From NCBI GenBank assembly GCA_020850315.1, contig JADZEY010000082.1, forward strand, positions 1 to 43,496: a stretch of DNA of 43,496 nucleotides. The letters run 5' to 3'. Positions within the stretch are counted from its first letter, which is position 1; each line of letters starts with the position of its first letter. Of the stretch, positions 1 to 25,332 are shown piece after piece. Below the pieces are notes generated by a model. That model had not been told where the DNA came from. It saw only the letters and a list, made by a program, of their open reading frames with translations, and made no database searches. Source of the DNA: Armatimonadota bacterium. Its GTDB lineage: Bacteria > Bacteroidota > Ignavibacteria > OLB7. The translations under genes and the position numbers were made by a program.

Positions 1-1108
1 CCAATAATCGTTGTCCCGGCTTGCCAGCAAAGACGCTGATGCGTTCACCTGCAAAGTCACCACCAATCGTGACCAGATCAAGGACATGATCGCCCGTGAC
101 ATCACTGAACAGAGCGAACTCGCTGCCAGAAGAACGAACGTTGATGGACTGAATCTCGGTGGTATCTATCCATGGTATTTCCGAACGCTGATAGACAACA
201 TGAACATCTATGATGTTGTTGCCGAAGATGTTGCCGCTACCATCATAGAAGATGAGGTCATTCTCCCCCGAGCAATCATGGTCACGATATTCTATTCCTT
301 TATCACCAGGTGGAGACCACCACCGTTGCACAGGCGAATAGTCTCTGCCATTGCGTCCCCATCGTTTCCCTGGCTCCCCTGCAAACACATAGATCCTTGG
401 AATCTTCACCAATCCACCACGGGTGAACCCTGAGCCTGTTCCTCGCACCAACAGGTCGGCTATCTGGTCGCCATTGAAGTCACCACTGACACCTCGATTC
501 GGAGTAATCCAAATCGGCGCATCACAGGGTAATTGGGTGGTGTCGCTGGTTGAGTAACCACCATTGGGTTGCCCCCAGAAGACCACTGGCATACCGATGT
601 ATCGCCCTGTCGGCCCTTGTGAGGTATCGTTATAGAGATGGATGCCGCAAACGATGTCGAAGAATCCGTCAGCATCAAAGTCACCAGTACAGAGGAACGT
701 AGTCATCGAGCCGATTTCCGTTGGTCCGATGCGGAGACCATCGGCAGGAGTTGGCAGCTTGTTCTTCCTGCCATAGAACAACAGTAACTCGTTGCCACGA
801 GTTGTCTTATCAGTACCAAACGCTGTGTCACAACGGGTTCGCTCGATAATGTAATCGGCCAGTCCGTCGTTGTTCAGATCACCGGTTGGAATGATCTGCA
901 TACCAAACAGCTCTCCAGTTTCACCTACCCAACCGGGCAAGCAGGTTAATGTAGCCCCATCCATGGTTCCCCATTCTTGCATGTAAGCAACGGAGGGGTG
1001 TCGTGGGTCAATGCGGTCTTGGGCGTGGCTTCCGGTGTGGGCAAGCAGTAGCACTGCTGTTGTTAGCAGCAGAAGAAAAACGCAGTTGTTGGTGTGTGGT
1101 GTTCTCAC
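1..1108 (-). CDS. Secreted FG-GAP/VCBS-repeat protein, 3' end cut by the window edge
   Basis: An open frame of 369 codons runs without a stop from a GTG at 1108 to the left edge. It begins with a signal peptide (hydrophobic LLLLTTAVLLLA, probable cleavage after SHA near residue 29). Four FG-GAP/VCBS-type calcium-loop motifs follow: GDLNNDGLADY, GDFDADGFFDI, GDFNGDQIADL and SDVTGDHVLDL. In this family such repeats form a beta-propeller on exported or surface proteins; the ligand is not known here. The GTG overlaps the stop of the upstream ATPase gene (GTGA, 1105-1108), so the two are probably one operon with coupled translation. There is no alternative ATG near the signal peptide, which fixes the GTG start. 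A T9SS sorting domain might follow beyond the window, but this is inference. Confidence 0.85.
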   Translation of the reverse strand, partial: MRTPHTNNCVFLLLLTTAVLLLAHTGSHAQDRIDPRHPSVAYMQEWGTMDGATLTCLPGWVGETGELFGMQIIPTGDLNNDGLADYIIERTRCDTAFGTDKTTRGNELLLFYGRKNKLPTPADGLRIGPTEIGSMTTFLCTGDFDADGFFDIVCGIHLYNDTSQGPTGRYIGMPVVFWGQPNGGYSTSDTTQLPCDAPIWITPNRGVSGDFNGDQIADLLVRGTGSGFTRGGLVKIPRIYVFAGEPGKRWGRNGRDYSPVQRWWSPPGDKGIEYRDHDCSGENDLIFYDGSGNIFGNNIIDVHVVYQRSEIPWIDTTEIQSINVRSSGSEFALFSDVTGDHVLDLVTIGGDFAGERISVFAGKPGQRLL

Positions 1109-4100
1109 TCTTCTTCCTGTTGGGCTAATTTCATCTCTACTCGCGTGGCTTCGGTGCGCTTCCCCTGGCGCAGCAGCACTTCGCGGAAGAGCTCGGCAAT
1201 TTCCTCGTCGTCCGGCATTGCGGCAAAGGCTTGCTCCAGAAGTTCTTCGGCAGTGGGAAGGTCTCCTTCCTTAGTGAGCAGTTTGGCCACACGAAGCAAG
1301 GTCTCGCGCAAGGTGTTCTCGTAATCTTCGCGGGCGGATTCAAAGAACTCATCATACAGGGTGGGGAAGGGGACTTGGCCGCAGCCGATACGCATGGCGG
1401 CGGCAATGGCCGGAACCGCACGGAGCAATCCCCCTTCCTTTAATGCCCTGATCGCTTCTTTCAGCTGCTGGTCGGCTTCTAACAGGTCAACCCACACGGC
1501 TTCACGGTTCAGCTGGGGGACCTCGCCGATGGTGTCAACCGCTTCGCTCCCAATCGCTTCCCGCAGCCGGAAGACGGCAAAATTCAGCGACTTCCGCGCC
1601 TTGTCGGGGTCGCGCTCGTTGCCGATTGCCAATGCCATAAACTCACGGTGGGAAAGCCGGCGGGCCAGCATTTCGTTGGCGGTCATCAGCCCCAACAGTG
1701 TGGCAATTTGCGCCCCACGGACGCGCTCCGGTTCTTCGCCCGGGCGTTGCACGGTGATAGTCCCAAACATCATCACTTTGGTGCGGGTTTCTGCCGATTC
1801 GTTGCTGGCCAGTTGCTCCGATTCCCGTTCGCGTTGCAGTGCTTTCAGCCGTGCGCGGCGGGCCGTAAGCTCACCTTTACTGAAGGCGTAGCCGAACTCC
1901 TTCAGCAGCGGCGCAATCAGCGCCGGAAGCCGCAGCCGTTCAAGGTGTTCCACCGCACGTTCCAGCCCGTCGTGAAGGTGGCGGCGTAGCGTCTCCGGGA
2001 GCGATTTGAACTCCTGCGGCATGGACCCCACCAGCCGGAACACCGCGTGGGTGGCCGCCAGGTCTTCAATGGCTAAGATTGGGCAGCGGAAAATTTCCCC
2101 AACAACTCTCTCAACTTCCTGAAGCGCGCCCCCTTGCTGAACAAGCTGCTGCAACCGTGCCAGCAAGTTGAGTGGTTCGCGCAGGCTTGCGGTGCTGTCT
2201 TCAGTTTCGTTAATGGTTTCGTTCTCCAGCAAATAGCCAAGCGTAGCGGTCAGGTCTTGTGTGCGAATGCCGAATTGCTCACGTAATTGGCGGGCTTTCT
2301 GCTGATCGCACCGGAGCAGTGCCGTACGCATCAGGATGGAGCCGATAAGCTGATGCCCTAGTACTTTCAGCACGTTGGTGTTGCTGGCGCAGACTTCTTC
2401 GGCTTGTTGGGCAAGGGCGCCGAAATCGGCTCCAAGCATTGCGTTCGCGTTCAGCATCACAAGCTGGCAACTCATGACTTCCGGGCGCAGCCCAAGCTCG
2501 CGGAATCGTGGAAGGGAGCGTTGGGCATTGGCAAGCATCTCATCCAACAATCCGATCTCGTGATACAACCCAATCTTCTGGATTCGCAGGTCGCTTTTCC
2601 GTCCCTCTTTGGTCAGCTCCTCAAGTTCCTGGATGGATTGCAGCCGCCGTTGCAGTTCTTCCTCGGTTTGGTACAGCCACAGCAGGTTGGGGGAGATGCC
2701 AACAAAGGCACTGCGGACGATATCGGCAGGAATGGAGGGATCATTCTGTAGCTCGTTCAGTTTCCGTTCCACCATCCGCATCAGTTGCAGGTTCCGCAGC
2801 GAGCTTGCCGCGCGCCCTAGGTCAATCAGGTTCCCGGCGTAGCGTATATGGCGACGCAGTGCGGGGAATTGTTCCACCACCTGCTCCACTTCGCCCCATT
2901 GTTGCTCCAGTTGTTCGGGATGTTTACGCCGCAGCAATCGCCGCTGGAAGATCAAGCCGGCAAGGCGATACTCACCCCAGGTTTCGTTGATTGGGTTGGC
3001 GGTAAGCTCCAGCAACTGCTCCACAAGCTCGGTGTACTCAGGGGCTTGTTCGCGCCGCAGCAGTTGCAGCCGGTAGCGGATCAGCATCACATCGAGTTCC
3101 CGTTGTGCGGGTTCTTCTAACTGGGGTCGCACCCGTGTGGCCATTTCCGCACCGATACTCCATATCGCTAGGGAGGAACGCCACATTCTGGTTCCATCAA
3201 TCACAAAGGCGATGGTTAAGATGCCCCGAATCGCCTGCAACACTGTTTCGGGAGTGGCGGTGATGCTGCCAAGCTGTTTTCCCAATAGTTCCAGCGGGAG
3301 GATGGAGTAGAGGGTGCGTTGTTCGGCAAGGAGTTGCACGATCATGTTTGGGTCGTGCGTGCGGCTTTCCACAAAGTGACGGTGGATCAGGTTGTGGGTG
3401 AAGGTTAGTGGGGTTCCGATTGCACGATATTCGGCAAGGGAGGAGGGGGTTGCTGTGGGTACCGAGAGAACCCCTTTGAATATCAGCGGGTTGATTGCTG
3501 CGGCGGCATCCGGCAGCAGAAGGGCGGCGGTTTCGCGGGCGAAGACTTCCCCCAGCATCGCCACGGTTGCTGCGGCGGATTTCTCCGATTCGGTTAAGTG
3601 TGCCACCATTCCTTCGGAGAGCAGCCGAACGTTCCGCTCCAGCGAGTCAGTGAAGGCGCGTGCGTCAATCATTCCGCTTGCGGTGGAGGCCGCCGCCGCT
3701 GCGCGATTTCCTGCTTGGGTTGGGCGCACGGCACCACGCAACGCGGAGCGAATCGCCATGGCGTTCCCCAGCGTTTTTTCCGAAAGGGCGCGGATTGCAG
3801 CCTCATCCAGCGCGTGGTTGCCGAATATCTCCGTGCAGATCGTCGCAATGTCCGATTCATTTATGCCGGTTAGTACAATCTCATCTACAAGAAATCGCTC
3901 AATCAGCCCCCGTGCAGCAAGGGTGACGGGGCGGGCTGTGAGAAGAATGGAGAGGGGCTCATCGGCAAGGCGTTCCAGCAGTGGGGCGAACTCACCCAGG
4001 ACGTCGCCGCCCAGCAGGTGGACATCTTCCAGCACCAACAGCGTTGGCCGAAGCCCGCAGATGCGAAGGATTGCCGAAGTAACCCCCGACAACGTTTCTT

Positions 4101-4416
4101 CGGGATCAGATTTCAGCAGCTGCTGGGCGGCAGGGTTGCGGGAAACCGCGCGCGCCAGCAGCGAAGGGATAGAGGTTGCAGCGTCGGGATAGAATCGCGC
4201 CTGCATCACCACCCCTCCGGCAATCGAAATTTGCGATGCGGCTTCTTCGGTCAAACGACTTTTCCCCACCCCGGCTTCCCCCACTACCATCATTGTTCGC
4301 AGCCCGTGCGCCTGGAACGTTTCGCGCCAGAAATTCAGCAATCGCTCAAGCTCCGCCTCCCTTCCGGTAAACGGAAGCAGCCCGTGGTTCAGGAAATTTA
4401 TTAGTGTGCGGTTCAT
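1105..4416 (-). CDS. Large AAA-type ATPase with C-terminal SARP/BTAD-like DNA-binding domain
   Basis: A 1103-residue cytoplasmic protein. Residues about 15-330 are an AAA/STAND-type ATPase: Walker A GEAGVGKS at 46-53 and Walker B LLVLEDVH at 126-133. A long alpha-helical middle part (about 350-860) looks like TPR-type helical repeats. From about residue 878 the C-terminus resembles an OmpR-type winged helix followed by a bacterial transcriptional activator (BTAD) helical domain, with KARKSLNFAVFRLREAIG matching the usual recognition-helix region. SARP regulators such as AfsR carry these parts in the opposite order (DNA-binding N-terminal, ATPase after it), so this is an AfsR/MalT-like regulator with a rearranged layout. 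The next gene overlaps its stop codon. It adjoins a cluster of secreted-protein genes whose promoters carry 22-bp direct repeats, and it is the obvious candidate activator. No Shine-Dalgarno is seen before the ATG. Confidence 0.8.
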   Translation of the reverse strand: MNRTLINFLNHGLLPFTGREAELERLLNFWRETFQAHGLRTMMVVGEAGVGKSRLTEEAASQISIAGGVVMQARFYPDAATSIPSLLARAVSRNPAAQQLLKSDPEETLSGVTSAILRICGLRPTLLVLEDVHLLGGDVLGEFAPLLERLADEPLSILLTARPVTLAARGLIERFLVDEIVLTGINESDIATICTEIFGNHALDEAAIRALSEKTLGNAMAIRSALRGAVRPTQAGNRAAAAASTASGMIDARAFTDSLERNVRLLSEGMVAHLTESEKSAAATVAMLGEVFARETAALLLPDAAAAINPLIFKGVLSVPTATPSSLAEYRAIGTPLTFTHNLIHRHFVESRTHDPNMIVQLLAEQRTLYSILPLELLGKQLGSITATPETVLQAIRGILTIAFVIDGTRMWRSSLAIWSIGAEMATRVRPQLEEPAQRELDVMLIRYRLQLLRREQAPEYTELVEQLLELTANPINETWGEYRLAGLIFQRRLLRRKHPEQLEQQWGEVEQVVEQFPALRRHIRYAGNLIDLGRAASSLRNLQLMRMVERKLNELQNDPSIPADIVRSAFVGISPNLLWLYQTEEELQRRLQSIQELEELTKEGRKSDLRIQKIGLYHEIGLLDEMLANAQRSLPRFRELGLRPEVMSCQLVMLNANAMLGADFGALAQQAEEVCASNTNVLKVLGHQLIGSILMRTALLRCDQQKARQLREQFGIRTQDLTATLGYLLENETINETEDSTASLREPLNLLARLQQLVQQGGALQEVERVVGEIFRCPILAIEDLAATHAVFRLVGSMPQEFKSLPETLRRHLHDGLERAVEHLERLRLPALIAPLLKEFGYAFSKGELTARRARLKALQRERESEQLASNESAETRTKVMMFGTITVQRPGEEPERVRGAQIATLLGLMTANEMLARRLSHREFMALAIGNERDPDKARKSLNFAVFRLREAIGSEAVDTIGEVPQLNREAVWVDLLEADQQLKEAIRALKEGGLLRAVPAIAAAMRIGCGQVPFPTLYDEFFESAREDYENTLRETLLRVAKLLTKEGDLPTAEELLEQAFAAMPDDEEIAELFREVLLRQGKRTEATRVEMKLAQQEEE

Positions 4417-4784: not shown

Positions 4785-4858
4785 TACAGCATAGTTCGGC
4801 ACAAAACTGGCCGAACCAGAACCACAACACAACCACAACACAACAAGGAAGCAGAACA

Positions 4859-5386
4859 ATGAAGACAACAATCAACGCAATCCTACGCTTTTGCATGATT
4901 CCGGCAGCACTGGTGGCAATGGTTGCCGCCACAGCAACCGCTCAACCGACGCAAATCCCGTTATCATCGGGCCAGCAACGCCCAAAACCAACCCGCGACA
5001 TCACTGCAACGGGGGACTTCCGGATTGTTGGCGCAACCCAAACATTCGGTGTGAACTACGGCGGGAGCATCACCCTGAAAGCCAGTGACCTAACTTTTGT
5101 GGCCACTACCAAGAAGTATGCCATGAATATGATCTATACCATGACCAACAACGGCAATGCTGGAACTGGTTTGTTCAACAATCGGATTGTTGATAATGGT
5201 GCCGGGATAAGCGGCGTAACCGGGCAATCGCTGAACGCTGGCCAAACAAAGGCGGTTACTCACTCCAAAGTGCAGCTCTCCGAGGGGACTCACATCATCA
5301 CGCTGATGCTGGATGACGCGAACGCCTGCGCCGAAACTGACGAGGGGAACAACACCTTCAAGCTGACAGTGGTGATTGTGCCATAA
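4859..5386 (+). CDS. Small exported CARDB-like protein
   Basis: 175 residues starting at the ATG that follows an AAGGA ribosome site. A signal peptide (hydrophobic core AALVAMVAATATA, cleavage near residue 28) is followed by about 145 residues. The second half has the features of a CARDB-type Ig-like fold: YTMTNNGNAGTG, an LNAGQTK strand turn and the diagnostic end LDDANACAETDEGNN. CARDB domains are adhesion modules of extracellular proteins in bacteria and archaea. The partner is unknown. A longer open frame reaches upstream to 4664, but it covers the promoter-like region and dispersed repeat, so the signal-peptide start is preferred. The signal peptide closely resembles that of the secreted protein at 7001, suggesting co-evolved export. 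A hairpin terminator follows 46 bases downstream. Confidence 0.8.
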   Translation: MKTTINAILRFCMIPAALVAMVAATATAQPTQIPLSSGQQRPKPTRDITATGDFRIVGATQTFGVNYGGSITLKASDLTFVATTKKYAMNMIYTMTNNGNAGTGLFNNRIVDNGAGISGVTGQSLNAGQTKAVTHSKVQLSEGTHIITLMLDDANACAETDEGNNTFKLTVVIVP

Positions 5387-5503: not shown

Positions 5504-5571
5504 CCGACAACCACTTTCTCCAAAACCGATAACCGCTTTCCCCCAAACCGACAATCGCCCCCGCTATCTTG
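5504..5571 (+). promoter_or_regulatory. Three tandem 22-bp repeats ending in TATCTTG promoter box
   Basis: Three exact-length units start at 5504, 5526 and 5548. Each begins CCGA(C/T)AA(C/T)C. The first two continue with TTTC(T/C)CC and A-runs. In the third the second half is replaced by the TATCTTG box (5565-5571). The core GACAATC ends seven to eight bases before the box. A 22-bp period is two helical turns, the arrangement described for SARP activators, which bind heptamer direct repeats spaced 11 or 22 bp with the last one about 8 bp from the -10. It follows directly on the terminator of the preceding gene. Confidence 0.55.
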
Positions 5572-5577
5572 ATAGAG

Positions 5578-6311
5578 TGCCTGGTAGCAACGGGCAATGT
5601 AAACCACCAACAAGAAAGAATCGCGGCACGGCCACCAACCGCGCCTGCCACACCAAACGAAAGGAAACCAGCAGATAGATCTGGTTGACAAGCAAGAGAG
5701 AGAGCAGTAATTAAAGAAGCGAGAGAGCCACCACCACAAAAAGCGGCGCACCACACTGCAAAGAAAAAGGGAAAGGAGAGCGGCACACCACCAGCCGCTG
5801 CAGATGGAGAGAAAGAGAGGAAACAACAACGCCGATAATGAGAGCAGGCACGGCGTATCACAACACACCATCAGCCGGGAACCACCACCCCGGCAAAACG
5901 GCAACACCACTGCCAACAGCTTGGAAAATCAACCGAGCAAAGGGAAGAGTGAAATAGAGAGATAGAACAATTCTTCCTGAAAAAACCACCACCAGAAGGA
6001 GCAGTGCCGAAGCATTGTGTGGGGGGAGTGAGCAAGAGAGAGAAAAAAGATGGCGCACCGGAGAATGCCATTGCAGCACAAAAGGCAATGGGGGCGGCGG
6101 TCCACCGCCCCCGAAGCCAACCAACTGAGGTCAAGAGAGAGAGACAGAGGTGTGGAGAGGCAAGAGAATCGCCAACAGCGCGATCATCACAACGCAAAAG
6201 AGAACCGATATCTTCTCCTTCGTTGTCTATAAACCGTAATTAGTCGCCAATCGTTTGTTCCTCCAATCCGCTGGGAAGCCTTGTGCAGCAAGGGCTTCCC
6301 AGCATTTTTTT
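5578..6311 (+). ncRNA. Candidate long T-depleted non-coding transcript
   Basis: About 730 bases lie between the promoter-like array at 5504-5571 and a strong terminator at 6270-6311, with no convincing gene on either strand. The plus strand is strikingly poor in T: by hand count about 46 T in the 540 bases 5641-6180. It is built of GA runs (CAAGAGAGAGA at about 5692, 6032 and 6132) and AC-rich stretches. Two hairpins stand out: GCCGGG/CCCGGC around 5874-5902 and GGGGGCGG/CCGCCCCC around 6089-6112. The long open frames on the minus strand are a consequence of T-depletion, not genes. It could be a regulatory RNA, an over-long leader whose gene was lost, or decayed DNA. Confidence 0.35.
6270..6311 (+). 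terminator. Strong rho-independent terminator without an obvious upstream gene
   Basis: GCTGGGAAGCC (6270-6280) pairs perfectly with GGCTTCCCAGC (6293-6303) and is followed by ATTTTTTT. Its orientation means that something is transcribed on the plus strand across 5578-6269, or that read-through from the CARDB-like gene needs stopping. Confidence 0.8.
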
Positions 6312-6504: not shown

Positions 6505-6572
6505 CTGCCAACTCACATTGCCCAAAGTGATAATCGTTTCCGCTGATTCTGATAATCGCTGCCGATATCTTG
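6505..6572 (+). promoter_or_regulatory. Three tandem 22-bp repeats ending in TATCTTG promoter box
   Basis: Units start at 6505, 6527 and 6549. Units two and three share TGATAATCG, and unit one is more degenerate (GCCAACT core, GCCCAAA end as in the 5504 array). The third unit runs into TATCTTG at 6566-6572, seven bases after its AATCG. This is the same layout and spacing as at 5504-5571, although the sequences differ at many positions. It stands 76 bases before the zinc-ribbon gene. Confidence 0.55.
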
Positions 6573-6648
6573 AATGGTATAAACAACGCCACCACAACGA
6601 AAACAGAACAGAGAGTTCCAGAACGAGGGACTACGAAAGGAAGACGTT

Positions 6649-6936
6649 ATGCAGCCCGTTTCAACAATCCGACCAACAATGTCGCCAGGCTATCGGGAAC
6701 TTCGGCAATGCCCAAAATGTGGATCCTTCGGCAGCGAAGCGGACACCTTCTGTGCCTGCTGTGGAACCCAACTAAAACCCACCTGCAATGCCTGCGGAAC
6801 CGCAGTGGAGCAAACCATGGCATTCTACTGCACGCATTGCGGAACGCGGCTGGCAGAAGGGAGCAACGTAACGGAAGAACGGAGAAGCGAACCGGGGAGC
6901 GCAGCAGCATTTTTTCGGAACCACCGTGGGCAATAA
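6649..6936 (+). CDS. Small double zinc-ribbon protein
   Basis: 95 residues starting at an ATG preceded by GAAAGGAAG. Cysteine pairs CPKC, CACC, CNAC and CTHC form two consecutive zinc ribbons of the DZANK type (about residues 20-68). The remaining 27 residues are polar and unstructured. Such ribbons bind zinc and usually mediate protein or nucleic-acid contacts. No catalytic domain is attached, so the role is unknown. There is no signal peptide, so it is presumably cytoplasmic, unlike its neighbours. It is followed after a 64-base AC-rich leader by the secreted protein at 7001 and is probably co-transcribed with it from the 6566 promoter box. Confidence 0.65.
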   Translation: MQPVSTIRPTMSPGYRELRQCPKCGSFGSEADTFCACCGTQLKPTCNACGTAVEQTMAFYCTHCGTRLAEGSNVTEERRSEPGSAAAFFRNHRGQ

Positions 6937-7000: not shown

Positions 7001-7492
7001 ATGAAGAAGCAACTCAGCAACCTGATCAAAATCGCAGCTATCGCCATTGCAATGGTTGCGGCAACGGCAATCCCAGCACTTGCACAACGGGGCGTAGCCG
7101 TTAATCCAAACATCCAGATTGCCAAAGTAACCGAAGTGCAAGTTGCCCCATACTTGGGTAGCGGCAACGGTGGCGGTAACTGCCCGCAAGGGGCAAGCTA
7201 TTCGGCAATGATTACCGTTGATGGGCCCTGCACCGTAAAGTTCGCGTGGATTACCGACAAAAATCCGAACCCGCCAGCATCCAGCTACACCAGCATCAAG
7301 TTCGACAAAGCGGGGTCGAAACCATACTACTACTACTTCAGCGCGACCAACGATCATCCAACGGTGTCCGGCTGGGTTGGCGTGAAAATCACTGCCCCAA
7401 ACCAGATGGAGTCCAACCATGTGAACTACTCGCTAAGCTGCACCCCAACCAATACTGTGCAGGTTAACCCGAACATCAAAATCAAGCCATAA
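7001..7492 (+). CDS. Small secreted protein of unknown function
   Basis: 163 residues starting at the ATG after AAAGGAGCC, an excellent ribosome site. A longer frame from 6926 overlaps the zinc-ribbon gene and is rejected. The signal peptide (IAAIAIAMVAATAIPALAQ) is cleaved after ALA near residue 28. The mature part is glycine-, tyrosine- and asparagine-rich, with a Cys pair about 23 residues apart (GGNC and GPC) and a late Cys in SLSCTP, which suggests a disulfide-stabilised beta protein. A curious internal echo exists: VNPNIQIAK near the N-terminus of the mature chain and VNPNIKIKP at the very C-terminus. No family was recognised. Confidence 0.75.
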   Translation: MKKQLSNLIKIAAIAIAMVAATAIPALAQRGVAVNPNIQIAKVTEVQVAPYLGSGNGGGNCPQGASYSAMITVDGPCTVKFAWITDKNPNPPASSYTSIKFDKAGSKPYYYYFSATNDHPTVSGWVGVKITAPNQMESNHVNYSLSCTPTNTVQVNPNIKIKP

Positions 7493-7516
7493 TCGGCAAG
7501 CAAAAAAAGATATTCT

Positions 7517-7546
7517 CCGAAGCAAAAAACTTTGCTAACTCTTCGG
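7517..7546. other. Nested stem-loop after the secreted-protein gene
   Basis: CCGAAG (7517-7522) pairs with CTTCGG (7541-7546) and an inner AGCAAA (7521-7526) pairs with TTTGCT (7531-7536). No T-run follows, so termination is uncertain. The block AAGCAAAAAA recurs 22 bases apart (7498 and 7520), so this could instead be a degenerate promoter array like those at 5504 and 6505. Confidence 0.4.
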
Positions 7547-7848
7547 GGATCGCTTCCGTTAAGCACCACAAGAGAGAGAGACAGAGAGAGGAGCGCAGGG
7601 AGAGAAACAACACGGAGCCTGCGCAACAGTAAGCATCACAAAACCCGGCGGAGAGATACCACCAACATCATCCGCCGGGGCTTCGGAACCGACAAGCAGC
7701 ACAGAGAGAGAGAGAAGGTTCAGAGAGTTCAGTTCCGAAATTCCAAACAGATAGGGGACGTTATCACACACTGCGTGCCCTTCCGCATCGGCAAATCAAG
7801 CCGAGAAATCACACAACCACCACACAAAGAACAGGAGAGAAGACGGCC
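7547..7848 (+). other. T-depleted, GA-rich leader before the NlpC/P60 lipoprotein gene
   Basis: No gene seen. The 180 bases 7561-7740 contain only about 14 T by hand count. GA runs appear at about 7570 and 7703. A stable hairpin, CCCGGCGGA (7644-7652) with TCCGCCGGG (7671-7679), has no T-run, so it is more likely a leader structure than a terminator. The last 40 bases are AC-rich and end in GGAGAGAAG before the ATG. Confidence 0.5.
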
Positions 7849-8931
7849 ATGCGTCAGAACGTCGCACGTACTATCAAAAGCGTCATCAGCGGGACCGCAC
7901 TGATGGCGCTTTCTATTGTCGGTTGCACCGATAGCAGCAACCCGTTAGCAAACCAAGAAATCGCGGCCCCATTTGCCAAGCACGCCAGCCAGTATAACTA
8001 CCAATCACAAAGCAATCCAGCCCGCACCGAGGTGTATGATGGATCTGCATTGATTGCTACTTTCACCAACGGCAGCTACACCGTCACCCTTAGCGGTCCG
8101 GGCCGCACCTTCACCGAAACCAACACCGTGAACGGAACCACCTACACCGCAACCGTTGCCCACACCACATGGGTTCGCACGCTTCCGGCAGCGTTCAACG
8201 GCACGGTAGATACCACCTGGCTGAACGATGCGATTGCCGCTAACACTGCCGGAACCGCCGATCTGCTGGCCATTGCCATGCAGTACGTTGACGGAGCCAC
8301 AGCAATCTATCAAGGCAATCAAAACATTGCTGGCGATGCTGACTACGGCCCGCTGCAAGATGACGGCACTCGCCAAGAAGGTTCCGATTTCAACGACTAC
8401 TTGGGGCTTGACTGGAGCTACGGATCCACCACCGATGCAGCCGAGAGCAACCAGCACAACTCCCTTGATTGCTCTGGCTTCATGCGGATGATCTGGGGGT
8501 ATCGTCACCACGGAACAGGTGCGGCTGGCGTTGTTGACACCATCCCGCTGTCGCTTGAGGCAACCGCTAATTTCACCACACTTCCGCGCAAGTCGTTCCA
8601 GATTTGCGATTCGGCGATGGGGGTGACGATTATCAGCAACAGCGGTGGTATGGTGACGAACTACGCGCCGCTGAACGTTGGCGATCTTGTGTTCTTCGAT
8701 GCCGACACCACCGCCTCCGACGGCTCGCGGATTGACCACGTGGGGATGTACATGGGGCTGGATAATGGTGGCAAACGCCGTTTCATCAGCAGCCGTAAAT
8801 CTATCAATGGGCCAACAATGGGGGATTACAAGGGGTCATCGTTGCTGGATAAGTTTGTGAAGAAAAGCGGGACGAACATCTACGAGCCGGTGCTGTACAC
8901 CAAAGCCTTCCGCGCCGCCCGCCGATTGTAG
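7849..8931 (+). CDS. NlpC/P60-family lipoprotein, probable cell-wall peptidase
   Basis: 360 residues. The N-terminus has a lipoprotein signal with lipobox SIVGC (Cys about residue 26). The C-terminal half is an NlpC/P60 cysteine peptidase: the catalytic Cys208 sits in NSLDCSGFMRMIWGY and His297 in RIDHVGMYMG, at normal spacing, with the GDLVFFD motif before the His. These enzymes cleave bonds of peptidoglycan stem peptides. The region between (about 40-180) is low-complexity Thr/Asn/Ala-rich and of unknown fold. It is likely anchored in the outer or inner membrane facing the periplasm. It has its own long T-poor leader. The catalytic assignment is firm; the substrate is inferred from the family. 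Confidence 0.8.
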   Translation: MRQNVARTIKSVISGTALMALSIVGCTDSSNPLANQEIAAPFAKHASQYNYQSQSNPARTEVYDGSALIATFTNGSYTVTLSGPGRTFTETNTVNGTTYTATVAHTTWVRTLPAAFNGTVDTTWLNDAIAANTAGTADLLAIAMQYVDGATAIYQGNQNIAGDADYGPLQDDGTRQEGSDFNDYLGLDWSYGSTTDAAESNQHNSLDCSGFMRMIWGYRHHGTGAAGVVDTIPLSLEATANFTTLPRKSFQICDSAMGVTIISNSGGMVTNYAPLNVGDLVFFDADTTASDGSRIDHVGMYMGLDNGGKRRFISSRKSINGPTMGDYKGSSLLDKFVKKSGTNIYEPVLYTKAFRAARRL

Positions 8932-9778: not shown

Positions 9779-9809
9779 TCTTCGGCAAAACAGCATGAGT
9801 AACAGGAGC

Positions 9810-9846
9810 CAGGGGCAGCATCATTCGGTGCTGCCCCTGCTTCTTT
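9810..9846 (+). terminator. Rho-independent terminator
   Basis: CAGGGGCAGCA (9810-9820) pairs perfectly with TGCTGCCCCTG (9829-9839), loop of eight bases, followed by CTTCTTT. Confidence 0.7.
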
Positions 9847-10007
9847 GGAGGAGAGCATTGCAGTCCCCAACTGGGGGCTATAAAAACTTTGTTAAGTCAA
9901 TCAAAAAAAAGTTGTAGGGTGTTGCATCGTTCAAGTTTTTTTTTATTGTTGCAGGTGATTCAGACTCCCTCTGACATCTATAACGTTAATCTGCAATAAG
10001 GAGTACT

Positions 10008-11060
10008 ATGATGATCTGTGAACAATGGTTCTGCCGCATTCAAATTTTGATAATGCTAATCACATTAGTTTTAATTCCAAGATTGGGAATTGCACAGTGT
10101 CCTCAACCCTTTGAAGGTACATACTCTATTATGCCTGGCAGTACTGATACGATTAGATCTACATCTGCGTATTTCACATTTCTGATGCCATATTCCAATT
10201 GCCATGTCTATTATATGATTGGTGAATTTAAAAAAAATCAACAAAATCTTATGCTGTCAGCTTGGTGTAATGGAAAAATATTAAATGATTTGTCAACAAC
10301 TCAATACGCAGATTCGAATTCAACACAATCGTTTATTGTGCGCTCTGGTGATACGCTTTCATTTTATAGAGAATTGTGGTGGATTAATCCAGCAAACCAG
10401 CATCAATTACCAAATGGATATTCTGCTGATGATAATATCGATTATGCGGTTGAGCTTATACAACATAGCACGGGTCAACGCCTCGCGTTAATTGATAGTT
10501 TAGGAGTATTATCAGCAATAGCTCCAACTATACCCGATTTTCATGGAAATAACACAATAATGGCAAAAATACAATATGTTGTACCTATAACAATGGATAG
10601 TATTAGGGTTAGAATGAGAACATTACCTTATGCTGTTGGCAATGGGCAATATTATTTTCAGAGAACAGATGCTATAGGGGTAGATCTATCAGCAAGGCTT
10701 CAAGATTCGTTGTGGATAAGTTACCTCCAAACTTATGGAGGAAGTGGGATGAATAAAGTTTCTATCGAAAATCTATCAAGAGTTTCATCATCAAATCTTT
10801 CAGCCAAACTCTCCGTTATATCACAAGTAGTGCGGAATCAACGCGAAGTCGCTATTGAGTACCTATTACCAAATGAACCTAATTCGGTTTCTATTATGAT
10901 ATATAATTCGAACGCAGAGTTGATATTTAGGCCATTGATATATTCAACAGAAAGATCAAAAAAAATAACATACGTTTTTCCTGATAATAATATTTTCTAC
11001 GTTGCGCTTGTTGTTGATGGCGCAATTGTTGCTGTTCAAAAACATATAACTACAGAGTAA
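10008..11060 (+). CDS. Exported AT-rich protein with a probable T9SS sorting domain
   Basis: 350 residues, with AAGGAG at 9998-10003 (either ATG 10008 or 10011). A signal peptide (IQILIMLITLVLIPRLGIAQ) is followed by a beta-rich Ser/Tyr/Asn-rich body. The last ~75 residues (VAIEYLLP..., SVSIMIYNSNAELI..., FYVALVVDG) have the spacing of the type A C-terminal sorting domain of type IX secretion cargo. T9SS cargo is moved across the outer membrane and released or attached to the surface. The body gives no recognised domain. The gene and the next are clearly more AT-rich than their neighbours, and codon use differs (ATA, TTA and AAT are common), suggesting transfer. The 160 bases before it carry A- and T-runs. 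Confidence 0.7.
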   Translation: MMICEQWFCRIQILIMLITLVLIPRLGIAQCPQPFEGTYSIMPGSTDTIRSTSAYFTFLMPYSNCHVYYMIGEFKKNQQNLMLSAWCNGKILNDLSTTQYADSNSTQSFIVRSGDTLSFYRELWWINPANQHQLPNGYSADDNIDYAVELIQHSTGQRLALIDSLGVLSAIAPTIPDFHGNNTIMAKIQYVVPITMDSIRVRMRTLPYAVGNGQYYFQRTDAIGVDLSARLQDSLWISYLQTYGGSGMNKVSIENLSRVSSSNLSAKLSVISQVVRNQREVAIEYLLPNEPNSVSIMIYNSNAELIFRPLIYSTERSKKITYVFPDNNIFYVALVVDGAIVAVQKHITTE

Positions 11061-11102
11061 ATACACGCTATCCTATCAACCTAAACCTAAGCAAAGAACA
11101 TC

Positions 11103-11429
11103 ATGAAACACCTTGCAATGCTGTGGGTAATCGCAACAATAACAATTTTAAGTACACTATCACTTCAAGCAAGAACAGCTTATCCCTCAGAGAATGATAA
11201 CTGCATTAGATATGTTACTGTTAATGGTACAACAATCAAATTAGAATTATGCTTTTGTATGGAAAGTCGATTGACAAAACAAGTAACGATAACAGAAAAT
11301 GGTGGAGATTTTTATGGCGAAACATGGGTCACAGATTATAATACTATAATGCTATACTGTGCTATGGCAGCAGTTCCTCGTTCACCTGAAGGCCTAATAC
11401 GCTGTCGAAAAAATCGAGATTGCTTATAG
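11103..11429 (+). CDS. Small exported cysteine-containing protein, AT-rich
   Basis: 108 residues with a signal peptide (LWVIATITILSTLSLQA, cleavage near 23). The mature 85 residues hold six cysteines (DNCIRY, ELCFCM, LYCAM, IRCRKNRDCL), compatible with disulfides. No family was recognised. It follows the T9SS-type protein after 42 bases and shares its AT-rich composition, so the two probably form one transcript. That transcript ends at the perfect hairpin three bases downstream. The ribosome site is weak (AAAGAACATC). Confidence 0.6.
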   Translation: MKHLAMLWVIATITILSTLSLQARTAYPSENDNCIRYVTVNGTTIKLELCFCMESRLTKQVTITENGGDFYGETWVTDYNTIMLYCAMAAVPRSPEGLIRCRKNRDCL

Positions 11430-15340: not shown

Positions 15341-16306
15341 ATGGCCAAGAACAAAGGTGTGTTAGGGCGCGGACTTGGGGCGCTACTTTCAGGAAACGCC
15401 ACAGCAGGGGAAACCGACAACCTGCGCGAGGACCTTCCCAACGACGATGGCCGGTCGGTGGGGACTATCTGCAAAATTGACATTGCAAAGGTTAGCCCAA
15501 ACCCATTTCAGCCGCGTGTTGACTTCAATCCGCAGGCATTGGAGGAATTGAAACTCTCCATTTTGGAGCATGGAGTGATCCAGCCGATTACGGTGCGGCG
15601 GATTGGCGATCGCTTCGAGCTTATCTCCGGCGAGCGTCGTGTCCGTGCATCCATTGATGCAAACCTGACCGATATTCCTGCCTACATCCTTGACATCAAC
15701 AGCGACCGGGGGATGCTGGCAATCGCGCTGATTGAAAACGTCCAGCGCGAAAACCTTAACCCGATTGAAATCGCGCTTGGCTACCAACGGCTGATTAAGG
15801 AGTGCAGCCTAACGCAGGAAGACGTGGCCGATAAAGTTGGGAAGGATCGCTCCACCGTCACCAACATGCTTCGGCTGCTTCGGCTTCCGCAGCAGGTGCA
15901 GGGCTCGTTGCGGGACGGCGAGATATCGATGGGCCACGCCCGAGCACTGCTGACCATCCAAGATGTAGAAGGACAACTTAAGGTCTGGAACCAGGTTCGG
16001 GAGGAAGGGTTGTCGGTGCGGAAAACGGAGGCGATAGTGAAGCAGGTGGCGCAATCGGGGGCTTCGCGGAAGGAGAAAAAGAAAGCCGCAACAACTAACG
16101 GCATCGCCACCCCAAGCCCTACCCGCACCGAGTTTGATCTGACCCTGACGGAAATCTCCGCACGGCTGCGCCAAGTGTTCGGCACGCAAGTAAAAGTGAA
16201 GTCGAACGCGGCTGGCGACGGCAACATCACCATTGATTTTTACAACAGCGAAGATTTGGAGCGGTTGCTGGAATTGTTTGCGGTGATTGAGCGGCATGGG
16301 CGATAA
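15341..16306 (+). CDS. parB: Chromosome-partitioning protein ParB
   Basis: 321 residues from the ATG at 15341 (MAKNKGVLGRGLGALL, the canonical ParB beginning). A GTG at 15323 would add six residues. The N-terminal ParB/Srx domain contains the CTP-binding GERRVRA motif (about 97-103) and ENVQRENLNPIE. The HTH for parS follows (LTQEDVADKVGKDRSTVTNML, about 155-175), then a basic linker and a C-terminal dimerisation segment. It loads at parS, clamps the chromosome and stimulates ParA. The HindIII-type restriction genes are inserted immediately downstream. Confidence 0.95.
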   Translation: MAKNKGVLGRGLGALLSGNATAGETDNLREDLPNDDGRSVGTICKIDIAKVSPNPFQPRVDFNPQALEELKLSILEHGVIQPITVRRIGDRFELISGERRVRASIDANLTDIPAYILDINSDRGMLAIALIENVQRENLNPIEIALGYQRLIKECSLTQEDVADKVGKDRSTVTNMLRLLRLPQQVQGSLRDGEISMGHARALLTIQDVEGQLKVWNQVREEGLSVRKTEAIVKQVAQSGASRKEKKKAATTNGIATPSPTRTEFDLTLTEISARLRQVFGTQVKVKSNAAGDGNITIDFYNSEDLERLLELFAVIERHGR

Positions 16307-16370
16307 CGAAAACGGAGCGATTGCTTAATCAATACGCCCTCAATTAAGTATGTAAAAACATCAACCGTTG

Positions 16371-17282
16371 ATGCAAATAATATCAAACGAGGCTATACAG
16401 AAGCGATTCTTTTGGGTTGAGGGTATTCGAAAATTGAAGGGCAGTTTTAGCGATGATTACGGATATCTATCTGAAAAGCTAATCACAGAAATTAGCAAAG
16501 AAGGTAGTGCTTCTTTAATTAATCACTTAAGGCTTTGCGGTAGCATCCCAGAATCTTACAGCCATGATTCAAGCGAAGAAAAACTCTACTCTAAATATAC
16601 TGACTGCTTGCTCTCGTTAAGTTTTAACACTATAGGCTTAAAAAGCATAGTGCTTGCTGAACGATCTGATACTGCCGATGTGGAAGTATTTGGTGAAGAT
16701 TATAGCTTTGTAGCTGATGCAAAATCTTTTCGATTAAGCAGAACAGCAAAAAATCAAAAAGATTTTAAAGTGGAAGCAATCCATAGCTGGAAACGGGGTA
16801 AGTCCAACGCAATGATTGTTTGTCCAATTTATCAGCTTCCAAGAGCTTCAAGTCAGATTTACCAAAGTGCGATAGCACGCAATGTCTGTATCCTTACATA
16901 CTCCCATATTTCTTTAATCGTTGCCTATTCTAACATTAATGGGAATGAAAAGGCTCAAAAACTATTACATGAAATTTTCAACGTTGTCCCACAACTTCCA
17001 CTTTCAAAAAATGCTACTGATTATTGGATGGGAATAAACAAAGTCATGCTTGAATTCTCTGAAGATATTCAAAGATTATGGCAAGAAGAAAGGCAAGCCT
17101 CATTGGAAGCGATAGCAGTTGCAAAAGAAGCGGATTTGATGTTTTTAGCACAACAACGAGAAAAAATAATGAGAATGACCCATGAAGAAGCCTTAGCACA
17201 GTTAATAAAAGTTTATAAAATTGACAATAAAATCAAAACAATTAATACAATTACCGATAACGGCCTATTCGCAATTCAGTAG
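16371..17282 (+). CDS. Type II restriction endonuclease of the HindIII family
   Basis: 303 residues, against 300 for HindIII. It shares with HindIII, as remembered, a long identical stretch around the active site: VADAKSFRLSRTAKNQKDFK at residues 114-133, where D116 and K118 are the DxK metal-binding pair of the PD-(D/E)xK fold. Upstream similarity includes EKLYSKYTD (70-78), and the C-terminal third keeps the REEALAQL-like helix. The expected activity is cleavage at A^AGCTT. The gene is AT-rich compared with its neighbours and lies directly before its methylase, with six bases between them. The ATG 16371 follows a TTG; no clear ribosome site. No controller (C) gene is seen. Confidence 0.9.
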   Translation: MQIISNEAIQKRFFWVEGIRKLKGSFSDDYGYLSEKLITEISKEGSASLINHLRLCGSIPESYSHDSSEEKLYSKYTDCLLSLSFNTIGLKSIVLAERSDTADVEVFGEDYSFVADAKSFRLSRTAKNQKDFKVEAIHSWKRGKSNAMIVCPIYQLPRASSQIYQSAIARNVCILTYSHISLIVAYSNINGNEKAQKLLHEIFNVVPQLPLSKNATDYWMGINKVMLEFSEDIQRLWQEERQASLEAIAVAKEADLMFLAQQREKIMRMTHEEALAQLIKVYKIDNKIKTINTITDNGLFAIQ

Positions 17283-17288
17283 AAGAAA

Positions 17289-18128
17289 ATGGAAATTTTT
17301 TTGAACTCAATCATTGAAGGTAATTGTGTTGAAGTGATGAAGCATTTTGACAGTGAAACTGTTGACTTAACAATTACTTCACCGCCGTATGATGGCTTGA
17401 GAAGTTACAAGGGTTATGTGTTCCCTTTTGAAGATATTGCAAAGGAGTTATACAGAGTCACCAAGCAAGGTGGAGTAATAGTTTGGGTAGTTGCTGATGC
17501 TACAATTGAATCTTCTGAAACAGGAACCAGTTTTAAGCAAGCACTCTTTTTTAAAGAAATCGGATTTAATTTACATGATACAATGATTTTTAGAAAAAAG
17601 AACCCTATTCCGCAAATTTACCGTAAACGCTACAATAATGAATTTGAATATATGTTTGTGTTTAGTAAAGGGAGCGTGAAAACCCATAATCCAATTATGG
17701 TAGATTGTATGCACGCTGGATTAGAACTAAACGGAACAACATATAAAAATTATTCAAAAAACGAACAAACAAGAGAAAAATTTGCTACTCCTGTAAAGGA
17801 TAAAAAAATTAAAGGAAATATATGGGAATACGTTGTCGGTAAAAAACAAGAAGATCAAGAAGCAAAAAGACATCCAGCACCATTTCCTTGTGATTTAGTA
17901 AGAGACCATGTGATGTCTTGGACAAACCCTGGTGACATCATCCTTGACCCAATGTGCGGTAGTGGAACTACCCCAAGAGTAGCCGCTGAAATGGGAAGAC
18001 GGTATATAGGTATTGACATAAGCCATGAGTATTGTGATATAGCGAAAAAACGTGTCCAACGCATAGAAGCGCAACCGACATTATTCGTTGAGGAAAAAGA
18101 GAAGCCTAACTCTGCTAAAGCAGCATGA
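17289..18128 (+). CDS. Adenine-N6 DNA methyltransferase (M.HindIII-like partner)
   Basis: 279 residues. The catalytic motif IV TSPPY at 30-34 comes before the AdoMet-binding motif I DPMCGSGTT at 220-228, with the target-recognition region between. This is the circular permutation of beta-class N4-C/N6-A methyltransferases, the class of M.HindIII. Because it directly follows a HindIII-family nuclease, the likely reaction is methylation of the first A of AAGCTT, protecting host DNA. Alternatively it could be an N4-cytosine enzyme; TSPPY is compatible with both chemistries, so the adenine assignment rests on the partner. It starts after AGAAGAAA. The pair forms an AT-rich insert ending about 18180. 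Confidence 0.85.
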   Translation: MEIFLNSIIEGNCVEVMKHFDSETVDLTITSPPYDGLRSYKGYVFPFEDIAKELYRVTKQGGVIVWVVADATIESSETGTSFKQALFFKEIGFNLHDTMIFRKKNPIPQIYRKRYNNEFEYMFVFSKGSVKTHNPIMVDCMHAGLELNGTTYKNYSKNEQTREKFATPVKDKKIKGNIWEYVVGKKQEDQEAKRHPAPFPCDLVRDHVMSWTNPGDIILDPMCGSGTTPRVAAEMGRRYIGIDISHEYCDIAKKRVQRIEAQPTLFVEEKEKPNSAKAA

Positions 18129-18227
18129 TCGTCAACGGAATCCTGTAGAAAAAAATAGAGGGATTATATTCACGACCTACGCTGTATTTGCTATTTCCTG
18201 ACATTGCTTTCCTAAAATCTCCTAACT

Positions 18228-24951: not shown

Positions 24952-25084
24952 GTCAGTTGTCAGTTGCAAAGAAAGTCATTGGTCATTGGGCATTAGTCAC
25001 TCACGTTACGCAAAGCCAAGGTCAGTTGTCAGTTGCAAAGAGGGTCATTAGTCCTTGGTCATTAGTCACTCACCTTAGGCAGAG
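24952..25084. repeat. Two adjacent direct repeats of about 65-69 bp
   Basis: Copy one (24952-25020) and copy two (25021-25084) both start GTCAGTTGTCAGTTGCAAAG and run through ATTAGTCACTCAC. They contain scattered GTCATTA/GTCATTGG heptamers, the unit of the tandem array at 25246. They lie directly upstream of the ispG start. Confidence 0.85.
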
Positions 25085-25208: not shown

Positions 25209-25245
25209 CTGGCAGCGAGCGAGGGCAGGTGCGTAAGGTGAGCTA

Positions 25246-25294
25246 GTCATTAGTCATTAGTCATTAGTCATTAGTCATTAGTCATTAGTCATTA
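25246..25294. repeat. Heptamer tandem array, seven copies of GTCATTA
   Basis: Seven exact head-to-tail copies of GTCATTA begin at 25246, 25253, 25260, 25267, 25274, 25281 and 25288. It lies just after the 3' side of the rhomboid gene, so its copy number can vary without touching coding sequence. The rest of 24943-25332 holds no gene. Confidence 0.95.
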
Positions 25295-25332
25295 GTGGAG
25301 AGTTCGCTGTTCATTGGCATTTGGCATTCGTC

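Follow-up and report, generated by a model that had tools for sequence, protein, structure and literature searches.

Composition of the U-poor interval

What is made from several hundred bases that nearly lack U on the transcribed strand, lie between a promoter and a terminator and hold no convincing gene? Such an interval occurs at 5578-6311 on the forward strand of the window analysed here (the whole stretch of DNA, 43,496 nucleotides), where the first-pass annotation had placed a candidate long non-coding RNA with some 8-9% T. On the evidence presented below, 5577-6311 is very probably a real non-coding unit and, as judged from its sequence, its product is probably a genuine regulatory RNA, because a related species retains the unit.

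The depletion is borne out, since T accounts for 55 of the 633 bases at 5578-6210 (8.7%), compared with 22.2% in the window as a whole, and the maximal-scoring T-poor segment (8.2% T, score 42.6) delimits a U-poor core at 5586-6208. The extent first assigned to it holds only in part: the interval is U-poor as far as about 6208, but 5578-6311 overall contains 91 T in 734 bases (12.4%), because its final 100 bases, comprising a conserved 3' segment and the terminator, are T-rich. In a sample of 844,894 bases (~0.84 Mb, some loci overlapping) of the 4.24-Mb host genome (G000), 123 T-poor segments score above 10; the core ranks first among the 17 that are less than half coding, with the runner-up scoring 20.0. 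In a first sample of 434,949 bases it ranked second of 31 segments scoring above 12, the top-ranked one lying inside a called gene. A whole-genome scan for T-free runs gave, among the matches listed, mostly overlapping windows on few tracts, and no second copy of the core was found elsewhere in the host genome, where the promoter box alone recurs.

Also significant is the enrichment of two motifs within the core, GAGAGA in the linkers between hairpins (10 copies versus 0.95 expected from dinucleotide shuffles) and ACCACC in loops and linkers (7 versus 0.36). The corresponding core of a same-genus relative (G001; Chlorobiota bacterium MAG-306, contig JAEUSP010000116.1), which at 12.4% T is less extreme, contains 11 copies of GAGAGA (0.84 expected) and 6 of ACCACC (0.36 expected), and none of 300 shuffles reached the counts of either core. 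Relative to other intergenic DNA of the sample, the density of GAGAGA is raised ~40-fold and that of ACCACC ~28-fold. When whole genomes were scanned for the pattern GAGAG-CCACC-GAGAG, the matching places numbered 4 in G000 and 5 in G001, each set including the unit, as well as 21 in G002 and 10 in G004; one of these places, on contig C108 of G000, is another U-poor region, and some others look like chance.

Several other compositional features were observed in the window. A low-GC island (~32-41%) at 16200-18200 contains a restriction endonuclease of the HindIII type (16368-17282, E 2.9e-106) alongside a DNA methylase (17289-18128), a second low-GC stretch (~35-40%) at 9800-11400 contains a 350-aa open reading frame (10008-11060) without a Pfam match, and a perfect 7-bp tandem repeat, TAGTCAT, is present in 7.6 copies at 25244-25296, with a 69-bp tandem repeat nearby (24952-25081).

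Promoter and candidate regulator

The promoter with a repeat array and the strong terminator that had been noted on either side of the interval are both present. Upstream, three direct repeats CCGAYAAYC begin at 5504, 5526 and 5548 (5504-5556, forward strand; 22-bp period), the second and third of which are kept in G001, and a -10 element read as TATCTT (5565-5570) lies 8 bp past the heptamer GACAATC, with the transcription start predicted near 5577. Downstream, an intrinsic terminator with a 13-bp stem and a T7 tract (6270-6311) is likewise kept in G001. According to passages of PMC10936776, the direct repeats of SARP boxes are spaced at 11 or 22 bp, and 8 bp separate the 3' repeat from the -10 element; a passage of PMC10972967 gives spacers of 4-15 nt between the heptamers. 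By its sequence, the repeat array thus reads as a SARP-type activator box, an identification that is new over the first-pass annotation. A second promoter of this type, with GATAATCG repeats 22 bp apart and a -10 TATCTT, lies at 6529-6575 ahead of a gene for a double zinc ribbon (DZR) protein.

The period of 22 bp was the best repeat lag (lags 9-30) in 12 of the 12 promoters tested, four of them from the unit's regulon in the host genome, two from G001 and six from other regulator/DZR clusters in three genomes; this is not an unbiased rate, because the promoters were picked after repeats were already visible in most. The scoring does not extend to clusters without obvious repeats (C32 and C67, with G001 counterparts C12 and C106) or to the versions of C7 and C87 in G001, and a thirteenth promoter, that of the CARDB gene at the same locus, has no 22-bp repeat lag. 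The 8-bp spacing from repeat to -10 was read by eye in 10 of the 12, with the heptamer also picked by eye within the repeat; the exceptions are C7, where the spacing is 8-10 depending on register, and contig C27 of G002, which is without a clear -10. The box pattern of the unit recurs at four sites only in the host genome, where a control pattern gave none, and in G002 the same GATAATCGCT repeat adjoins the best homologue of the neighbouring regulator (42% identity).

This regulator, a 1103-aa STAND/SARP-type protein encoded divergently from the unit (1105-4416, reverse strand; 83% protein identity in G001), is likely its activator, as suggested by Pfam, profile and structure-model evidence. 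It carries an AAA_16 domain near the N terminus (Pfam, 1.3e-13), and its C-terminal part comprises a winged helix and a BTAD-like region. A PDB search using the whole regulator gave nothing useful. When the C-terminal 235 aa were aligned for 14 members of the family, which has 21 matches in the host genome, the best PDB match of the resulting profile was AfsR (E 0.0027). Pfam BTAD was matched in 13 of the 14 (E up to 5, best 4.5e-6) and Trans_reg_C in one (E 0.069); the BTAD matches are to relatives only, the domain not being found among the listed Pfam matches of the window's own regulator. The AlphaFold2 model (pLDDT 91.5) gave six Foldseek matches in the PDB at E<=0.001, of which three are chains of AfsR and three of EmbR, and on this model the C terminus adopts a SARP-like winged helix plus BTAD fold. 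We consider it likely that this neighbour controls the unit, and the RNA would belong to a small regulon, because the box is SARP-type and the divergent neighbour's DNA-binding region is a SARP region resembling that of AfsR.

AAA_16 regulators with a SARP-like C terminus were observed at 1105-4416 of the window, on C60, C87 and C7 of G000, and in G001, G002 and G004. Several are divergent from a DZR gene and have their own cluster-specific 22-bp repeat box; the family may comprise regulators that act in parallel, each with a DNA specificity of its own.

Folding and conservation of the RNA

The first-pass annotation had offered a weakly folded RNA as one explanation of the depletion, which the folding calculations contradict. 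The folding energy of the core is -167.0 kcal/mol compared with -142.2 kcal/mol for 100 dinucleotide shuffles (z -4.6), and that of the G001 core, which includes an inserted palindromic repeat, is -185.2 versus -143.7 kcal/mol (z -5.8). The cores of both species are thus more stable than their shuffles, with around ten discrete hairpins, and the unpaired parts are the GA linkers. Counting stems of 5 or more pairs, 11 hairpins are listed in the window's core and 10 in that of G001, not all of them orthologous and a few weak. They include, all on the forward strand, a 5' hairpin TGCCTG-GTAGCAA-CGGGCA (5578-5596), retained in G001, where two changes, each on one side of the stem, leave the pairs intact; AGCGGC-ACACCACCA-GCCGCT (5779-5799) and GCCGGG-AACCACCAC-CCCGGC (5874-5894); a hairpin at 6049-6072 that is kept in G001, where one pair differs by a double compensatory change (G-C to U-A); and TGGGGGCGG-CGGTCCA-CCGCCCCCG (6089-6113), also kept. 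In the block that contains 6049-6072, two of the 19 predicted pairs are changed on both sides, the second of them in a 2-bp helix, a comparison of two sequences only, which are too few to prove covariation. GAGAGA is unpaired above chance in global folding (0.84 versus 0.50 in the window's RNA, 0.65 versus 0.42 in G001), and the unpairing of CCACC is marginal in the window's RNA (p ~0.03) and in G001 reaches p 0.001 globally and 0.14 locally.

Compared with G001, the unit shows 83% DNA identity in its promoter part, 87% in its terminator part (6213-6311), where the RNA is best conserved, and 69% in the alignable middle. The core has turned over, with a repeat inserted and a middle that aligns poorly, and the numbers of GAGAGA and ACCACC are about equal; the comparison of composition in a related genome that had been suggested for this interval finds the unit kept, at 12.4% T, with its motif numbers. 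The inserted element is a dispersed palindromic repeat with >45 matches in G001, and because it is itself palindromic, some of the hairpins and of the stability of the G001 core are due to the insertion; the ACCACC and GAGAGA counts are unchanged when it is left out. A DUF559 gene (E 5e-38 in L169) at L169 3460-4410 (G000:C97) and L170 2060-2830 (G001:C27) has the same palindromic repeat pair on either side; the second of these repeats is dispersed in G001 (>45 matches) and less so in G000, and a copy of the pair also lies inside the U-poor unit of G001.

A search for related loci returned the G001 record alone, and the unit is found in two genomes only; among 13 genomes, a close relative of the neighbouring CARDB gene likewise occurs just in G000 and G001. 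The gene 3' of the unit differs between the two species, being DZR here and an FG-GAP-like gene (by eye) in G001, where DZR lies on a different contig from the unit, and this difference argues for an autonomous unit.

Neighbouring leaders and alternative explanations

The genes around the unit, all on the forward strand, bear on the other explanation first advanced, selection for a leader function. Upstream lies a small secreted-type CARDB-domain protein (4859-5386; 92% identity to G001), whose leader (4797-4858) contains 1.6% T and whose promoter is without the 22-bp repeats. Downstream are the 95-aa DZR protein (6649-6936; Pfam), also with a U-poor leader (6581-6648, by composition), a 163-aa protein (7001-7492) with a signal-peptide-like start by eye and no Pfam match, and an NlpC/P60-domain protein (7849-8931; Pfam). 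Ahead of the last of these, 7493-7848 forms a second hairpin region that is U-poor (9.4% T at 7561-7848) and GA-rich; it is a leader or an intercistronic stretch and is kept in G001. In this NlpC/P60 leader, GAGAGA occurs 11 times per species and is not significantly unpaired, ACCACC is rare (2 copies and 1), and one of 19 pairs shows a double change relative to G001, again between two sequences only.

When T was counted at -60 to -1 of 61 secreted-like genes sampled (mean 24%), the lowest three values (1.7, 3.3 and 3.3%) were those of genes at this locus; 10% or less was seen in 5 of the 61 compared with 8 of 183 other ATG genes. The idea that leaders are U-poor throughout the genome was rejected, T being 23.9% in tandem intergenic DNA and 23-26% in the 60 bases upstream of genes (from a simple gene caller with crude starts). 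More U-poor GA-rich non-coding regions are nevertheless present on contigs C45, C96 and C108 of G000, and together such regions form a sparse class in the genus. Because the CARDB leader is U-poor without a 22-bp-repeat promoter and U-poor regions occur elsewhere, U-poverty is not tied to the regulon of the unit. One such region lies between two small secreted CARDB-type genes (L203 13098-13447, G000:C108; L204 9885-10286, G001:C63), with a 12-bp hairpin by eye in C108 and a long hairpin in the G000 and G001 counterparts. Another (L213 1797-2116, G000:C45) follows a lipoprotein-like gene, has an 8-bp stem around a GA loop by eye and is followed by a MalT-like gene (by eye). The unit is the longest of the U-poor regions found and the sole one with a promoter and a terminator but no gene.

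Selection for a leader function is therefore an idea that survives in one respect, that neighbouring leaders are U-poor too, but the unit runs to its own terminator and its 3' neighbour differs in G001. It might instead be the relic of a secreted-protein gene that has been lost: the long U-poor leader of that gene would still be transcribed but functionless, its composition reflecting a selection for leaders that are open and stable, as in the adjoining genes. The three adjoining U-poor leaders with the lowest T of the sampled set, the NlpC/P60 leader built alike and the rapid turnover of the core are all consistent with this possibility; since both species are without the gene, its loss would predate their split, and yet the promoter, the terminator, some hairpins and the motif numbers persist in both. 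On balance we regard such a relic as somewhat unlikely.

The conserved T-rich 3' segment (6213-6269, defined by alignment to G001), which contains GTTCCTCCA, a possible base-pairing seed, raises a different prospect. A trans-acting sRNA could use this pyrimidine-rich sequence to base-pair at ribosome-binding sites on its target mRNAs, with the U-free body serving only to prolong its lifetime. The 87% identity of 6213-6311, the best conserved part, and the AAGGAG-like sites seen in the sequence of the neighbouring genes favour such pairing. RNase E/G is encoded in the genome, and, as a passage of PMC5222698 has it, the main signature for cleavage of single-stranded RNA by Salmonella RNase E is a U located two bases beyond the cleavage site on the downstream side, so that U-free linkers should be poor substrates, to the extent that a signature from another organism applies. 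However, a 630-base body is unusual for a trans-acting sRNA and Hfq was not found in G000, G001 or G002, and we judge this account improbable.

The poor alignment of the middle, together with GA-tandem tracts that have no apparent role elsewhere, could also mean that the interval has no function, its low-complexity sequence having drifted while the regulatory ends on either side were conserved. This, too, we think improbable, given the excess of stable hairpins in both species with pairs kept, the parallel motif numbers, and a length and score that are unmatched.

Finally, the claim that the interval holds no convincing gene is upheld by the comparison that might have overturned it, a search for a conserved frame. 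Six-frame translation of 5576-6269 gave 20 peptides of at least 25 aa, none with a convincing counterpart in G001: the best matches span at most ~30 residues with E 2e-5 or weaker and track DNA similarity, one crosses a stop, and the few longer alignments are weaker still, compared with E 1e-111 for the CARDB gene as a control. Mismatches fall evenly over the three phases of the alignable blocks (15/12/18 and 3/5/5), unlike those of the CARDB block (27/66/37). That the unit encodes one or more short peptides is therefore very improbable, despite plus-strand open stretches of up to 96 codons.

Discussion

Our preferred reading, held tentatively and at less than even probability, is that the RNA acts as a decoy or scaffold. 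The STAND/SARP protein (1105-4416) would bind the direct repeats of 22-bp period (5504-5556) and initiate transcription near 5577, giving a stand-alone RNA of ~730 bases that would end at the terminator near 6310. The molecule would resemble hairpins on a string, with ~ten GC stems and nearly U-free GAGAGA/ACCACC spacers; because these linkers are almost U-free, they would find no pairing partner and would contain few sites of the RNase E type. It would present ~10 GAGAGA and 6-7 ACCACC sites to an RNA-binding protein, as a multivalent decoy or scaffold, and would compete for that protein with the NlpC/P60 leader, which is U-poor and similar in build. Such a model accounts for the motifs kept through turnover, for the autonomy of the unit and for co-regulation. 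CsrA was found in none of G000, G001 and G002 (0 of 3; control rings in 3 of 14), nor was Hfq (0 of 3; control rings in 5 of 14), which speaks against the model. A bolder version, which we rate as rather doubtful, is that the unit represents a new class of bacterial decoy/scaffold RNA, its hairpins set on U-free GA/ACC linkers, under a STAND/SARP activator, titrating an RNA-binding protein from leaders of similar build on secreted-protein mRNAs, with the co-regulated zinc-ribbon protein perhaps being the one titrated.

Among known systems, the large ornate RNAs OLE, ROOL and GOLLD are several hundred bases long and contain no gene; the unit, by contrast, is a plain chain of hairpins where those RNAs have a conserved compact fold, and Rfam covariance models gave no match to it at the gathering score, with three matches at chance level (E 5.7-8.7). 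CrcZ-type Hfq decoys carry A-rich, U-poor repeated motifs, and the unit shares the U-poor repeated design, whereas the motifs themselves differ and Hfq was not found in the three genomes. CsrB/CsrC and RsmY/RsmZ are stand-alone decoys with short motifs repeated on a multi-hairpin RNA, the number of motifs being kept as the sequence drifts, and CsrA and Hfq are the known owners of such decoys. The unit is like them as an autonomous multi-hairpin RNA whose motif number is stable despite drift, and unlike CsrB and RsmZ in that its motifs are GAGAGA and ACCACC and not a loop GGA, a triplet that is in fact below expectation in the unit (12 versus 16), and in that CsrA was not found in the same genomes. 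The sequestering role of CsrB is treated in a passage of PMC5027483. A narrowly worded literature search found no paper on U-poor sRNAs.

The regulator and its box resemble AfsR, EmbR and SARP boxes in the C-terminal fold, the 22-bp direct repeats and the 8 bp to the -10 element. In the large SARPs described in passages of PMC10936776, however, the extra domains lie behind an N-terminal SARP domain, whereas the SARP region of this regulator is C-terminal and follows AAA_16. The present system also differs from AfsR and EmbR in that its host belongs to the Chlorobiota and that one putative target is a unit without a gene.

If the decoy or scaffold reading is correct, the unit would provide post-transcriptional regulation in a lineage whose searched genomes yielded neither CsrA nor Hfq. 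It would also illustrate a natural design for a long RNA without misfolding of its modules, in which hairpins are insulated by non-pairing linkers, and it links a likely RNA with an AfsR-like regulator outside the Actinobacteria.
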